Below, one piece after another: positions 2,980-26,349 of a stretch of 26,349 nt of DNA. A model generated the notes under the pieces. It saw nothing but the letters and a program-made list of their open reading frames with translations, had not been told where the DNA came from and searched no databases. The stretch comes from a virus: the IMG/VR virus record IMGVR_UViG_3300025719_000005, positions 1 to 26,349 of that record; one strand, given 5' to 3'. The translations under genes were made by a program, and so were the position numbers. Positions within the stretch are counted from its first letter, which is position 1, and every line of letters starts with the position of its first letter.

Positions 2980-3299
2980 TGGATGTAGAAACTGGAGAAT
3001 GCCCTTTAGGGGCTAAATGTGAAGAAGTTAAAACCGTTAATGGTAAGCAAGTTATAGTTCGTTGCCCTTGGTACATTAGAGTATCAGGTAAAAATGTTAA
3101 TACGGATGAAGACACAGATGATTGGGGTTGTGCTATTGCATGGATGCCCGCCTTATTAATTAACACTGCAAATGAAGCCCGTAAAGGAGCATCAGCTACA
3201 GAGAGTTTTAGAAATGAAATGGTAACAGAGGGGGCTAAGACAAGACAGATTCTTGCTACTCCTTTTAATTCTAGAGTTCGATTAGTAAATGATACTTGA
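2979..3299 (+). CDS. Hypothetical protein with four conserved-looking cysteines
   Basis: 106 residues, start overlapping the preceding stop (TAATG). Cysteines lie at 8, 14, 29 and 51: CPLGAKC, then RCPWYIRV, then WGCAIAWMP. This spacing could bind a metal or an iron-sulfur cluster, but no named family is claimed. A segment rich in small and hydrophobic residues follows (AIAWMPALLI, about 52-61), then a charged helix containing ESFRNEM. I recall similar proteins as hypotheticals near tail or lysis genes of other phages, without a known function. It lies between the last fibre gene and an iron-dependent oxygenase, and may be translated with both. No signal peptide is seen. Confidence 0.6.
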   Translation: MDVETGECPLGAKCEEVKTVNGKQVIVRCPWYIRVSGKNVNTDEDTDDWGCAIAWMPALLINTANEARKGASATESFRNEMVTEGAKTRQILATPFNSRVRLVNDT

Positions 3300-3840
3300 G
3301 TATCCTAATTTTGTTAGTAATGAAGATATAGACAGTATACTAAGTGGTATTCATCCTTATGTGAATAAGGGTGATACTCATATGTATAACAGGGACGGAA
3401 AAACTGTCAACATTACAAAAACAGAAGGATTAAGTGAGGTAGATAAATTATTACAAAAAATATTTGCTAATCTTCAAGAATCTTTAATATCAAGAAGGTA
3501 TAAACCGATAAGAGAATCAGCAGACCAAGATTATGAATATCATAGATATGATAAAGGACAGATTTGTCATTATCATACGGATGGAGAGTTTGGTGGAAAT
3601 GTTAATGAAGGATGCTTGTTAAGATATGCTTCTGTTGTATTGCATCTTAATACTGTTAAAGAGGGTGGGGAGTTAATATTTCCTGCTCAGAATAAAGCAA
3701 TAAAAACAGAGAAGGGAAAGATTGTTGTTTTCCCGCCTCACGCAACTCATGGACACTATACCACTCCTTCCCCAGAGGTTAGAGAGATTGTAGTAACATG
3801 GTTTGTTTATTCCGACATAATTGTAAGGACTAATAAATGA
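3289..3840 (+). CDS. 2-oxoglutarate/Fe(II)-dependent oxygenase (prolyl-4-hydroxylase type)
   Basis: 183 residues, the usual size of a minimal single-domain 2OG oxygenase. The double-stranded beta-helix motif is readable: HxD as H96-T97-D98, the GGELIFP strand at 126-132, FPPHATHGH (148-156) with the distal iron His most likely H154, and R165 as the 2-oxoglutarate-binding basic residue, followed by the VVTWF strand. Members of this superfamily hydroxylate amino-acid side chains or other substrates using O2 and 2-oxoglutarate; the substrate here cannot be read from sequence. The start overlaps the upstream gene by 11 nt without an obvious Shine-Dalgarno, suggesting coupled translation. Such genes occur as accessory genes in marine phages. 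Position next to tail and lysis genes leaves open a virion or host-protein substrate. Confidence 0.85.
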   Translation: MILEYPNFVSNEDIDSILSGIHPYVNKGDTHMYNRDGKTVNITKTEGLSEVDKLLQKIFANLQESLISRRYKPIRESADQDYEYHRYDKGQICHYHTDGEFGGNVNEGCLLRYASVVLHLNTVKEGGELIFPAQNKAIKTEKGKIVVFPPHATHGHYTTPSPEVREIVVTWFVYSDIIVRTNK

Positions 3841-4276: not shown

Positions 4277-4651
4277 ATGGATGTAATGACATACGTTCTA
4301 TTAGCTTATACAATTATCCTTGGCGGAATGTATGGATGGAGACAATATACAGCCCGTCAAAGGGATACAGCTAGAAAGGAACTTGCGGGATTACAAGCAC
4401 TAGGGAAATATCAATCAGACTCTAGTAATAAAATTAATAAACATAATGATAAACTTAAAGAGGAACTTGATGAGAAATTTAACAATATTATTGACCATAT
4501 TGATGCTGACAGGGTGTCAAACGCTTCTCGCCCCCGCAATTTGTCCAGATCCATTGAGCAGCTTTCCAGAAGTGAATTACTCAAACGATTGAGTAAAGCA
4601 GAGACAGCTTTAAAGATAATACACGAATGGAGAAATAGAGTTCGTGGTTAG
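4277..4651 (+). CDS. i-spanin (Rz-like inner-membrane spanin subunit)
   Basis: 124 residues. One N-terminal transmembrane anchor (about 4-20, YVLLAYTIILGGMYG) is followed by a charged, helical, coiled-coil-prone periplasmic region (about 25-80) and a basic C-terminal segment. This is the architecture of Rz-type i-spanins, which reach across the periplasm, bind an outer-membrane lipoprotein and fuse the two membranes at the end of lysis. The call is greatly strengthened by a complete o-spanin lipoprotein gene embedded in the +1 frame (4470-4592). Codon use changes in the shared part (GC-rich around 4520-4545), as expected where one stretch codes twice. The gene follows the holin-like gene by 1 nt and overlaps the terminase start, as Rz precedes TerL in T7. 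Confidence 0.8.
   Translation: MDVMTYVLLAYTIILGGMYGWRQYTARQRDTARKELAGLQALGKYQSDSSNKINKHNDKLKEELDEKFNNIIDHIDADRVSNASRPRNLSRSIEQLSRSELLKRLSKAETALKIIHEWRNRVRG
4460..4463 (+). promoter_or_regulatory. Internal Shine-Dalgarno for nested o-spanin
   Basis: GAGG, in the context AAGAGGAA (4458-4465), lies 6 nt before the ATG at 4470 and inside the i-spanin reading frame. It selects this ATG over the in-frame ATG at 4446, which has no comparable site and would put extra charged residues in front of the signal sequence. Confidence 0.75.
4470..4592 (+). CDS. o-spanin (Rz1-like) lipoprotein, nested in the i-spanin gene
   Basis: A 40-residue gene lying wholly inside the i-spanin gene in the +1 frame. It starts MRNLTILLTILMLTGC: a basic n-region, a hydrophobic core and a lipobox LTGC with Cys16 as the lipidation site. 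The mature part is only 25 residues with four prolines (22, 26, 28, 33), the size and proline content typical of Rz1 proteins. GAGG at 4460-4463 lies 6 nt upstream of the ATG, a good Shine-Dalgarno inside the i-spanin coding sequence. The frame ends with TGA at 4590-4592. It would be exported, lipidated and placed in the outer membrane, where it pairs with the i-spanin. Fully embedded Rz/Rz1 pairs are known from lambda. Too short for usual gene-finding cut-offs, so easily left out of annotations. Confidence 0.88.
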   Translation: MRNLTILLTILMLTGCQTLLAPAICPDPLSSFPEVNYSND

Positions 4652-6176
4652 CTCTAGAGTAGAACAGATTAGGGTATTGGCGGAGAACAACTTTATCTCC
4701 TTTGTGAGGCTAGTTGCTCCGCATCTCCTAATAGGATTAATCCATGAGGAACTAATGCAATGGCTTACTAGGCAAGATGCAAAGCCTAATAGACTTGTAT
4801 TGCTACCTCGTGGTCACATGAAAAGTAAACTTGCTGCATATTATACTGCATGGAAGATAACAAAGAATCCTGCCATTACAGTATTGTATATATCAGCAAC
4901 CGCACCTTTAGCAGAAAAACAATTATATCAAATTAAGTTAATATTGGATAGCGAAATCTATGCAAGATATTGGCCTGAGATGTTAAAAACAGAAGAGGGA
5001 AAGAGAGAGAAATGGGCTGTAGAAGAAATATGCGTAGATCATCCAATCAGGAAAAAAGAGGGTGTTAGGGATAGTACGGTTAAGGCTGCTGGAATTACTG
5101 CTAATGTTACTGGTTTCCATGCAGACTTGGTGGTTTTGGACGATTTGGTCGTGCCTAATAATGCCTATACTCAGGATGGCAGAGATAGGGTAGAAGCTTT
5201 ATATTCTCAACTTGCATCTATTGAAAATCCTAATGCAGAAGAAGTGGCAGTAGGAACTCGATATGATCCTAGAGACATCTACAGTAACTTTATTAGTATG
5301 CAAGTGACTATATATGATGATGAGGGAAATGAAGCAGATACAGACAATGTATATGAGGTCTTTGAACGGCAAGTAGAAACAGAAGGTGAGTTTCTATGGC
5401 CTCGGAAACAAAGGACTGATGGACAATGGTTTGGATTTAACCAGAAGATACTTGCAGGTATTAAAGCTAAGTATTTAATACATGAACATTTTTATGCACA
5501 ATATTATAATAATCCTAATGCTATAGGAAGTGGGGGAATTAACCCAGAGAAGTTTCAATACTATGAACCTAGACTTTTAACAAAGAATGGGGAGTATTGG
5601 TTTATGGCTAGAGAGAAATTATCTACTTATGCAGCGATAGATTTCGCATTCTCCTTAAAGAGAAAAGCTGATTATACAGCACTGGTAACTGTAGGTGTAT
5701 CTTCCTCTGGTAATTTCTATGTACTAGACATTGATAGGTTTAAGACAGATCGTATTGTAGAGTATTTTAATCATATTGTTAAAGCACAAAACAAGTGGGG
5801 ATTTAGGAAGCTATGTGCAGAAGTAACAGTGGCACAACAGCAAATAGTAAACGAACTTAAAGAAAGCTATATCAAACCTAATGGATTGCCTTTAGTAATA
5901 GATGAGTATAGACCATCTAGACAAGAGGGTGATAAAGAAGAAAGAGTATCAGCTATACTCGAACCTAAGTATGAGAATCAATCTGTGTGGCACTATAAGT
6001 CAGGTAACTGTCAAATACTAGAAGAAGAATTGATACTTAAACGACCACCACATGATGATGTAAAAGAAGCCCTATCTAATGCTATTAAGATTGCCGTTAT
6101 CCCTAGACAATGGGCAAATAATGTTGTGAGTATTGATAGTCTTAAAGTTCACCCTAGATTTGGAGGTATGATGTAA
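4644..6176 (+). CDS. Terminase large subunit (packaging ATPase/nuclease)
   Basis: 510 residues. N-terminal ATPase: Walker A-like PRGHMKS at 55-61 (the PRGxxKS form found in T7-like terminases), Walker B LVVLDD at 162-167 and a coupling-type motif VAVGTRYDP at 201-209. C-terminal RNase H-like nuclease: AAIDFAF with Asp333, Glu393 in CAEVT, and Asp471/Asp472 in PPHDDVKEA as likely metal ligands. The protein powers DNA packaging through the portal and cuts the concatemer. The start is GTG, overlapping the i-spanin stop by 8 nt; the next in-frame ATG would remove conserved-looking N-terminal sequence. The overlap with the spanins and the portal nearby repeat the T7 neighbourhood (18.5/18.7-19). 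Confidence 0.9.
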   Translation: MVSSRVEQIRVLAENNFISFVRLVAPHLLIGLIHEELMQWLTRQDAKPNRLVLLPRGHMKSKLAAYYTAWKITKNPAITVLYISATAPLAEKQLYQIKLILDSEIYARYWPEMLKTEEGKREKWAVEEICVDHPIRKKEGVRDSTVKAAGITANVTGFHADLVVLDDLVVPNNAYTQDGRDRVEALYSQLASIENPNAEEVAVGTRYDPRDIYSNFISMQVTIYDDEGNEADTDNVYEVFERQVETEGEFLWPRKQRTDGQWFGFNQKILAGIKAKYLIHEHFYAQYYNNPNAIGSGGINPEKFQYYEPRLLTKNGEYWFMAREKLSTYAAIDFAFSLKRKADYTALVTVGVSSSGNFYVLDIDRFKTDRIVEYFNHIVKAQNKWGFRKLCAEVTVAQQQIVNELKESYIKPNGLPLVIDEYRPSRQEGDKEERVSAILEPKYENQSVWHYKSGNCQILEEELILKRPPHDDVKEALSNAIKIAVIPRQWANNVVSIDSLKVHPRFGGMM

Positions 6177-23917: not shown

Positions 23918-24229
23918 ATGGAACACGCAAATCATGCCGAGTGGCTTTTTGAATTATTAGTAGCAGCAGCAGGACTATTAGTAGCAGCAGGGCTATGGTT
24001 TGGTAGATTCTTATTAGTAAAGATTACAGAGTGTAGAGCGCAAGGTAGAATTACTTGTGATAAACTTGCTGTATTAGAGTTGAAAATTGCAGAAGAATAT
24101 GTTAGCGCACTCACCTTTAAAGAAGCTATTAACTCCTTTAAAAGTGAAGCACTCCAACATCATAAAGAAATACAAGATCGCTTTGCTAAACTAGAAAACT
24201 ATATGATGAAACGTAGGGGTGGGGATTAA
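23918..24229 (+). CDS. Small membrane-anchored coiled-coil protein
   Basis: 103 residues. One long hydrophobic segment (about 10-34, LFELLVAAAGLLVAAGLWFG onward) is followed by a charged helical tail with coiled-coil character (about 45-97), including EYVSALTFKEAINSFKSEAL and HKEIQDRFAKLENYM. Single-span phage proteins with cytoplasmic or periplasmic coiled coils include class III holins, antiholins and spanin-like factors; none is established here. AAAGGAAA precedes the ATG. The DNA for the membrane segment contains a 15-bp direct repeat. It is the last gene of the plus-strand block and its TAA stop overlaps the stop of the converging gene. Confidence 0.6.
   Translation: MEHANHAEWLFELLVAAAGLLVAAGLWFGRFLLVKITECRAQGRITCDKLAVLELKIAEEYVSALTFKEAINSFKSEALQHHKEIQDRFAKLENYMMKRRGGD
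23955..23990 (+). repeat. Short in-frame direct repeat in membrane segment
   Basis: TATTAGTAGCAGCAG occurs twice, at 23955-23969 and 23976-23990, exactly 21 bp apart, encoding the repeated peptide LLVAA(A)G inside the transmembrane helix. The period is seven codons, so recombination between copies would lengthen or shorten the helix in frame. Confidence 0.8.
24226..24229. other. Shared stop tetranucleotide at a convergent gene junction
   Basis: TTAA serves as TAA on the plus strand (24227-24229) and as TAA on the minus strand (24226-24228). The two transcription blocks therefore meet with a 4-nt overlap and no intergenic terminator. Confidence 0.9.
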
Positions 24230-24609
24230 GTTATATTCCTTTTTATAACCATGACTTGTTTCCCTGTCTTCTGAGAATATTTAATACCATGCTCAGTCCC
24301 CTTGGAAACCCCGTCCCATATTGCTAACACTCGATCCGCATTGTCAATGATTTGTTTATTACGGATAAAGAAATGTCTAGCTGAATAAGTGGAAGCCCTG
24401 TCTAGTTTAAAGTATGGGATGAACTCTACGTGATCCATACTCCATTTACTAGCATAAGACTTAGCGAATCCATCTATTCCCTCTGCGCCACCTGAAATAA
24501 GGGTAATGGGAACTCCCTCAACTGCGTGACCTGTAACAAAAGTATGGATAACTTCCCACACCATTTGTTCTTCTTTTAATGACCGACTACCTATTATTGC
24601 AAGTTTCAT
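24226..24609 (-). CDS. DUF2493/SLOG-type nucleotide-binding protein
   Basis: 127 residues. Rossmann-like SLOG/DprA-type motifs are clear: MKLAIIGSRS (GSRS at 7-10), LISGGAEGID (SGGAEGID at 39-46), RHFFIRNKQI (R83-N84) and ADRVLAIWDGVSKGT (WDGxSxGT at 98-105). This is the DUF2493/YspA-like branch, whose members are thought to bind nucleotides or nucleotide derivatives; substrate unknown. In phages it sits among nucleotide metabolism genes, as here downstream of nrdJ. GAGGG lies about 9-10 nt before the ATG, and the gene starts 1 nt after the preceding minus-strand stop. Its TAA stop overlaps the opposing gene's stop. Confidence 0.8.
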   Translation of the reverse strand: MKLAIIGSRSLKEEQMVWEVIHTFVTGHAVEGVPITLISGGAEGIDGFAKSYASKWSMDHVEFIPYFKLDRASTYSARHFFIRNKQIIDNADRVLAIWDGVSKGTEHGIKYSQKTGKQVMVIKRNIT

Positions 24610-24965: not shown

Positions 24966-26349
24966 AAGCCCCTGCCACACACGCAAGAGTTTGTGATGCT
25001 TCCGTATTATCCTTATCCTCAATCATAGCACTCCAATCAATCTCTGTAGGCATTTTAGAAAGCATTTCCTCATATTGTTCTTTCGTAATGTCCTCGTAAG
25101 GTGCTTGTTGGTATACGTGGTCAGAATGGGGCAAAAAGCTTATTCCTGAGATGCGATCAAATCTCTCCCAGACCCATGCGCCTACCCCTACCCATTCATC
25201 TTCCTTCACGTACACAGTACAACTAGGCTTATGTTCACACCAATCGTCTTGATACATCAACCATAGTTCCATCTGCTCTATTGCTGTTTGGCTACCCCTA
25301 CATACTGCCCCTTCAGGTGCTTTCATAGGGAAACTAGCCACCATTGTTGTTTCCTTCTTAGCTTCATAATCAACTAGAGGAAATCCATTGTCTAATAAGA
25401 ATTGACATACTGGATCTTTCTTATCTAATTGAATACGGCGTATGTAGTAAGGGGCAAACCTAGCATGAATCCCACTAGCAGAGTTACACAACTGAGAAAC
25501 AGTCCCAGAAGGCTTAACGCAAGTAATAGCAGTAGAAACAGGTATGTTAAGTCTCTCAGCCCATTTAATATTAACCTTCCTAGCATGATCTCTTAACTCC
25601 TGTAGTAATGTAGGTAGTCCCCGTACCAATTCCCTATGTTGTAGCACCGCATCTTTAGCCCCATTCAGTAACGGGCTATCCATAATACCTGTCAGGCTAA
25701 CTCCTAGCAGCCTTTCTTCGTCTGTATTCTTCTTCCATTCTTCGGATAAGAACTTGAAATCCGTAAGGGTTGATTGATATGTTCCAAGTATTGTTGCCAG
25801 TTCAATCTTCTTCTTGAGTTCATTATATGTATCTGATTGTCTAACAACAACCTCTGTAAGGTTACAGAATTGTTTATCTCGTAGTATAATTTCTGAGCAT
25901 GGATTGCATCCGTAATCAAGATCAGCACTACGTCTTCCCCAACGAGAGGCTTGATTTTGTGCAGCAATGCGGTTAAAGATCCCCCTCTCCCCAGACCCCG
26001 ACTTAACGAGACTGAGCCATTCTTCCAAAAAAGTTTTAGCATCGGGCTGCTCCGTGTAACATACTGAATTATTAGCTAACATCCTATGTGGATTTCCGCC
26101 GTCTTGTACTGGTAGATACCATTGACCTGTCTTAGCATCACGCATTCTGTGGTCAGTTAGATTAGATAGACCAATCAATGCACTACGTCTCACACCACCA
26201 ACAACAACAATGTCACCAATCATACATATAATATCATGTACTTCTAGACTATTCAGCTTACGTCCTTTAGCCCCCTTAAATGTCTCTGTTACAAATGTAA
26301 ATAGATTTTGTAATGGAAGTGGGCCAGAAGCACGACCACCAAATGTTTT
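24955..26349 (-). CDS. nrdJ: Adenosylcobalamin-dependent (class II) ribonucleotide reductase, 3' part
   Basis: The frame is open from the right edge to TAG at 24955-24957: 464 codons seen, 42 of them upstream of the first visible Met (26223), so the 5' end is outside the window. Reduces ribonucleotides to deoxyribonucleotides for phage DNA synthesis. Sequence marks: TFGGRASGPLPLQNLF near the edge, NNSVCYTE, GCNPCSEI with the thiyl-radical Cys (codon 25897-25899), a Cys exactly 11 residues later (the C408/C419 spacing of monomeric RTPR), and C-terminal CVAGACEI with two Cys 5 apart, as the C731/C736 redox pair. This fits the monomeric B12-dependent type and needs host cobalamin. No intein at the NPC site. 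The stop overlaps the DUF1289-like start. Confidence 0.92.
   Translation of the reverse strand, partial: KTFGGRASGPLPLQNLFTFVTETFKGAKGRKLNSLEVHDIICMIGDIVVVGGVRRSALIGLSNLTDHRMRDAKTGQWYLPVQDGGNPHRMLANNSVCYTEQPDAKTFLEEWLSLVKSGSGERGIFNRIAAQNQASRWGRRSADLDYGCNPCSEIILRDKQFCNLTEVVVRQSDTYNELKKKIELATILGTYQSTLTDFKFLSEEWKKNTDEERLLGVSLTGIMDSPLLNGAKDAVLQHRELVRGLPTLLQELRDHARKVNIKWAERLNIPVSTAITCVKPSGTVSQLCNSASGIHARFAPYYIRRIQLDKKDPVCQFLLDNGFPLVDYEAKKETTMVASFPMKAPEGAVCRGSQTAIEQMELWLMYQDDWCEHKPSCTVYVKEDEWVGVGAWVWERFDRISGISFLPHSDHVYQQAPYEDITKEQYEEMLSKMPTEIDWSAMIEDKDNTEASQTLACVAGACEI

Follow-up and report, generated by a model that had tools for sequence, protein, structure and literature searches.

The described systems closest to the locus reported here are the two-component spanins of phages lambda and T7 and, with regard to the packaging gene, those of the cobaviruses. 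In lambda, the gene of the o-spanin Rz1 lies wholly within that of the i-spanin Rz, in its +1 frame, and encodes a lipoprotein of 60 aa whose mature part (40 residues, 10 of them proline) has at its position 10 a cysteine, Cys29, that forms a homotypic disulfide (PMC6139136). Rz carries two periplasmic cysteines, and within the lambda group conservation is stronger in the i-spanin than in its partner (PMC6139136). The same source reports at least one cysteine able to make an intermolecular disulfide in 507 of 528 spanin pairs, and indicates that embedded o-spanins are often missed, 196 of the 528 being unannotated (PMC6139136). The T7 pair 18.5/18.7 is likewise embedded, in a +1 register according to its coordinates, and immediately precedes the gene of the large terminase (order 18.5/18.7/19), with an o-spanin of 83 aa that has a long N-terminal extension. 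Cobaviruses (Zobellviridae), marine podoviruses whose terminase is 51-52% identical to the one encoded here, have spanins that are encoded far from terL and described as unimolecular, combining a lipoprotein N-terminus with a membrane helix at the C-terminus (PMC6775973).

The DNA analysed here, referred to as the window, comprises the 26,349 nucleotides of IMG/VR virus record IMGVR_UViG_3300025719_000005. The features of interest are listed in Table 1. A preliminary description, made from the sequence alone, had placed at 4470-4592 a complete o-spanin gene of 40 codons in the +1 frame of an Rz-like gene, with a Shine-Dalgarno sequence, an LTGC lipobox and a 25-residue, proline-bearing mature part, and all of this proved correct when checked against the sequence. 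Translation of the embedded ORF gives MRNLTILLTILMLTGCQTLLAPAICPDPLSSFPEVNYSND; from the ATG at 4470 to the stop at 4592 the product can be written as MRNLTILLTILMLTG followed by CQTLLAPAICPDPLSSFPEVNYSND, with four prolines in the mature part. Judged with simple patterns, it has the signal expected of an o-spanin, namely the lipobox cysteine, Arg2, a hydrophobic core and Gln at +2, and the Pfam lipid attachment site LPAM_1 matched the signal with an E value of 0.023, under its curated cut-off. The in-frame upstream ATG at 4446, which would give 48 aa, was rejected as a start, and 4470 is taken as the conserved one, because a TAG directly precedes it in four diverged homologues.

Table 1. Coordinates of the lysis region in the window.
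Feature	Position	Strand	Remarks
Membrane protein heading lysis cassettes, 87 aa	3837..4100	+	Homologues 67-93% identical, heading cassettes with endolysin and/or Rz/Rz1
Membrane protein, holin candidate, 63 aa	4084..4275	+	Weak PHROG holin matches, E 0.02-0.28
Putative i-spanin (Rz-like) gene, 124 aa, without Cys	4277..4651	+	ORF; homologues; weak PHROG Rz-like spanin matches, E 0.02-0.1
Shine-Dalgarno aaagagg for the embedded gene	4457..4463	+	6 nt before ATG 4470 (sequence)
Putative embedded o-spanin (Rz1-like) lipoprotein gene	4470..4592	+	40 aa; +1 frame of 4277-4651
Lipoprotein signal sequence, residues 1-15 (Arg2, hydrophobic core, LTG)	4470..4514	+	Sequence
Lipobox Cys16, predicted lipidated mature N-terminus	4515..4517	+	LTGC at 13-16; invariant in homologue alignments
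Second Cys, Cys25, candidate for an intermolecular disulfide	4542..4544	+	Mature position 10; invariant in alignment
Large terminase gene	4644..6176	+	PHROG 38, E 1e-86; directly after, and slightly overlapping, the spanin gene

The arrangement resembles that of lambda in that the inner gene lies entirely within the outer one and in its +1 frame, the frame on which selection acts (see below), and spans a fraction of 0.51-0.84 of it, compared with 0.48-0.87 in lambda, also in agreement with published statistics. Cys25 and Rz1 Cys29 occupy the same mature position, and the invariant Cys25 would supply the cysteine usual in spanin pairs. The systems differ in that no sequence similarity to the lambda or T7 proteins was detected, in the smaller size of the window o-spanin, and in the lack of cysteine in its partner, although pairs of a Cys-less i-spanin and a Cys-bearing o-spanin are common. 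The gene had been called very short, which applies to the o-spanin (25 mature residues versus 40 in lambda) but not to the pair, whose approximately 125 periplasmic residues fall within the published range of 62-300. No C-terminal hydrophobic segment was found in the 40-aa product, which thus lacks the hallmark of a unimolecular spanin; cobaviruses, which belong to the same family as phage MEP402, are described as having that kind of protein far from terL, whereas the window has an embedded two-component pair beside it.

The outer protein has a predicted N-terminal membrane helix at about residues 3-21 (hydrophobic 5-20), followed by a helical, charged remainder. An AlphaFold model of low confidence (pLDDT 65), too low to base a fold search on, has a helix at 3-73, a linker at about 74-97 and a second helix at 98-123. 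The codons of the mature o-spanin overlap outer residues 80-104, mostly predicted linker in this model, which would explain how the outer frame tolerates the constraint imposed on it. The charge pattern is unusual, with no positive charge before the membrane helix and several after it, so that the positive-inside rule does not favour an N-in topology.

The surroundings of the pair are those of lysis genes: holin-like neighbours, related cassettes and a T7-like position before terL. The 87-aa membrane protein is the best conserved gene of the cassette and was used as a probe to find the IMG/VR contigs L056, L059 and L064, where its homologue also heads a cassette that includes an Rz-like gene with a +1-frame, Rz1-like lipoprotein. 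These cassettes differ from that of the window in having spanins of other sequence families, with inner ORFs of 78 to 107 codons, and extra genes that separate the head gene from the spanin genes. Their Rz/Rz1-type genes matched the Rz-like spanin family PHROG 456 (E 8e-7 in L059, 1e-4 in L064 and 5e-4 in L056), and L059 additionally gave a match to Pfam LysC (Rz1-like) with an E value of 3.5e-4, under the curated cut-off. In a further contig, L068, a phage lysozyme gene (PF00959, E 6e-34) is directly upstream of the homologue of the 87-aa protein. Since related cassettes carry lysozyme or Rz/Rz1 genes, the region can be regarded as a lysis cassette; an endolysin was not recognised in the 26 kb window. 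The 87-aa protein itself, with no match in Pfam, PHROGs or isolated phage records, may be a holin, an antiholin or a lysis regulator. Its core is almost invariant (AFVPALLILWQP.WF.W.V.LFPLSREYYQ) among the window, L056, L059, L064 and L068, where the downstream genes are quite different. As for the lysozyme (L068:2074-2553), it has an N-terminal hydrophobic stretch (RRAGLAIMLSGSGLSTIAL) and resembles a signal-arrest-release endolysin.

In view of this context of holin-like, endolysin and Rz/Rz1-type genes, the previously proposed reading of 4277-4651 and 4470-4592 as an embedded two-component spanin pair of the Rz/Rz1 kind finds support, and we consider it highly probable, the lysis function being deduced from sequence and neighbourhood. 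An alternative is that the inner ORF is a genuine lipoprotein gene of another kind, for superinfection exclusion (Cor-like) or some other moron function, placed in the lysis region. The best PHROG match of the 40-mer is indeed Cor superinfection exclusion (PHROG 1119, E 0.011), and the charges of the outer protein, which disfavour an N-in topology, would also be in line with a lipoprotein that is not a spanin. However, the match is limited to residues 1-25 and does not extend over the mature protein; being essentially a match to the signal peptide, it led us to discard a Cor-like function for the 40-mer. We know of no Cor gene embedded in such a way, and the arrangement is that of a spanin, with an enclosing gene encoding one N-terminal membrane helix and a helical, periplasmic-type part, and with related cassettes that contain endolysin or Rz/Rz1 genes. 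A lipoprotein of this other kind is therefore unlikely.

For the spanin pair, we infer by analogy with lambda where the two proteins reside, that they form a complex and a disulfide, and that they fuse the membranes. The product of the outer gene would be anchored by its N-terminus in the inner membrane as the i-spanin, and translation of the inner gene, in the +1 frame, would start at a ribosome-binding site of its own. The resulting lipoprotein would cross the inner membrane through Sec, be processed by cleavage before Cys16 and, given the Gln at +2, be transported to the outer membrane. In the periplasm the C-terminal parts of the two proteins would make contact, a Cys25 disulfide may hold dimers together and, after removal of the cell wall by an endolysin, the complex would fuse the inner and outer membranes.

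Outer-protein homologues were found in about 19 IMG/VR contigs (L001-L010, L016, L040 and L065-L071), from 100% down to 55% identical, all the close ones being metagenomic contigs. The inner ORF is present in every homologue that covers the region, with a length of 40-47 codons and a start MRNL or MKNL, and the examination of the +1 frame that had been suggested as a check found it open, with the lipobox cysteine, in all of them. Also kept in these sequences are the ATG (M1), Cys16, Cys25, PxPLxSFP and Tyr37, and the residue at +2 is always Gln. In the representative alignment Cys16, CQT, ICP (24-26), PL (28-29) and SFP (31-33) are invariant, with variation at positions 27 and 30, and a Shine-Dalgarno sequence, aa[ag]AGGAA, is at the same site in 7 of the 7 homologues compared. 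In L040, L068, L010 and L016 there are many stops in the +1 frame outside the 40 codons, one of them just before the ATG, and yet the 40 codons stay open.

Within the overlap, the lipoprotein is better conserved than the outer frame, with identities of 85 versus 59% between the window and L040, 70 versus 51% with L010 and 68 versus 44% with L016. Third positions of the outer frame, in comparisons with the window, showed an identity of 0.76-0.93 inside the overlap versus 0.26-0.58 outside; with L040 they were the most conserved positions inside (0.93) and the least conserved outside (0.52/0.26). Synonymous variation in the outer gene, the second check suggested earlier, turned out to be suppressed over the overlap: pooling two separate pairs (window-L040 and L010-L016), synonymous changes affected 7 of 42 codons inside and 54 of 91 outside (one-sided Fisher p 2.7e-6). 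Overlapping-gene counts were made in the manner of OLGenie with our own script rather than the published program, on five related sequences whose pairs are partly non-independent, and gave for the lipoprotein frame a dNN/dNS of 0.33 (bootstrap 0.20-0.52). For the outer frame, dNN/dSN was 0.98 in the overlap, with a wide interval (0.58-1.85), and 0.31 (0.21-0.45) in the N-terminal part outside it. Since the non-coding +1 frame of the non-overlap segment also gave a ratio of 0.63 (0.44-0.92), part of the dNN/dNS signal is code background, and it is the contrast between segments, rather than the raw ratio, that carries the argument. Purifying selection acts on the lipoprotein frame, and no constraint was detectable on the outer frame in the overlap. 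The inner ORF is thus a genuine gene, maintained by selection, for a protein that has the features of a lipoprotein, and it lies in a lysis-type cassette. It is the o-spanin rather than the i-spanin that is the conserved partner, a mildly surprising reversal of the situation in the lambda group.

The lack of detectable constraint on the outer frame could also mean that only the inner gene has a functional product in the overlap, the C-terminal part of the outer protein having little function and the lipoprotein acting alone or with another partner. We consider this very unlikely, given that all full-length homologues have the outer frame open over the same length of 124, that its N-terminal part is constrained and that the last 19 residues of the outer protein are still 53-89% identical to those of the window in diverged comparisons; the interval of the ratio in question is, besides, the wide one given above.

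Expectation by chance was evaluated by recoding the outer gene with the protein fixed and synonymous codons sampled from the phage's own usage, in 20,000 trials per sequence. An alternative-frame lipoprotein ORF arose in 9 of the 20,000 trials for the window (0.045%), in none for L010 (0%) and in 2 for L016 (0.01%), and the +1 identity observed for L040 or L016 was never attained by recoded sequences, even with the shared codons retained. With the same thresholds, 4470-4592 is the sole lipoprotein ORF of its type on both strands of the whole 26 kb window, looser ones adding an unconvincing minus-strand ORF at 25425-25586. Short ORFs within genes are common, but that this one is an untranslated by-product of the outer gene's codons is extremely improbable and, to judge from the alignments, already refuted in effect by conservation, as the frame opening, lipobox and identity far exceed what recoding yields, the inner frame is selected, and the diverged homologues keep the 40 codons open behind a stop while the +1 frame is interrupted elsewhere.

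Neither spanin protein of the window was matched above cut-off by any profile family of Pfam or PHROGs, and when both spanins (tblastn) and both membrane proteins were compared with 50,697 phage records, no match of significance was obtained. Homology to the lambda Rz1 or T7 18.7 families was accordingly not detected in those records, and PHROG spanin matches had E values of 0.02-0.21. Embedded spanins as such are well known, and this pair is a sequence family absent from the 50,697 records. An o-spanin alignment scan of the genome collection retrieved only L046, an unrelated lipoprotein of 341 aa from a Dehalococcoides MAG that shares the signal peptide.

The window terminase is 61-62% identical to those of the Methylophilales phages MEP401/402 (Zobellviridae) and of isolate ctOsX528. 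The host had been stated to be Gram-negative; we would word this as probable, in keeping with the closest isolated relatives by terminase, which infect Methylophilales. Directly upstream of terL, no comparable embedded lipoprotein ORF is present in MEP402, ctOsX528, ICBM1, ICP2 or CRP-5. In MEP402, the complete genome was scanned in a simple way and likewise showed no lipoprotein-like ORF, so that this isolate, which infects a Gram-negative host, may be without a recognisable spanin.

In L040/L041, L068, L069 and L071, the last of which contributes just the end of its spanin gene, the spanin cassette adjoins a gene for an HslV-family peptidase, and a T7-type maturase/terminase is found where the contig extends to it. 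The L041 terminase, which shares as much as 54% identity with its counterparts in Roseobacter phages (CRP-171 among them), is of a type different from that of the window. The spanin cassette is, judging by these sequences, common to phages with unrelated packaging genes, which points to exchange of lysis cassettes between lineages. This sharing is, like the reversed conservation, mildly surprising. A broader proposal can be put forward tentatively, with chances a little short of even: that Zobellviridae-like and T7-like marine phages swap a mobile lysis cassette with reversed roles in the overlap, the sequence of the common DNA being set by the 40-codon o-spanin and the i-spanin linker fitting around that gene while being little constrained itself. 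If this is true, the pair would include one of the smallest natural o-spanins and offer a natural test of the minimal lipoprotein for membrane fusion. The locus brings in a spanin family of uncultured marine phages that had escaped annotation, with clear comparative proof of coding for a gene of 40 codons, and indicates that a spanin pair can move as one block among phages whose packaging genes are unrelated. With about half of its 25 mature residues invariant, this o-spanin would be a compact system for defining those needed in membrane fusion.

Other genes of the window deserve mention. Directly upstream of the lysis cassette, 3289-3840 encodes a 2OG-Fe(II) oxygenase-like protein (PHROG 61, E 1e-22), and the tail-fibre-like protein of 2125-2979 contains a carbohydrate-binding module of family 5/12 (PF02839, E 1e-6), possibly involved in binding to the host surface. 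Finally, a ribonucleotide reductase fragment has in its vicinity, at 24229-24609 on the minus strand, a gene for a SLOG/DprA-like small protein (YAcAr PF10686, DNA_processg_A PF02481); SLOG proteins of this sort may act as nucleotide sensors.
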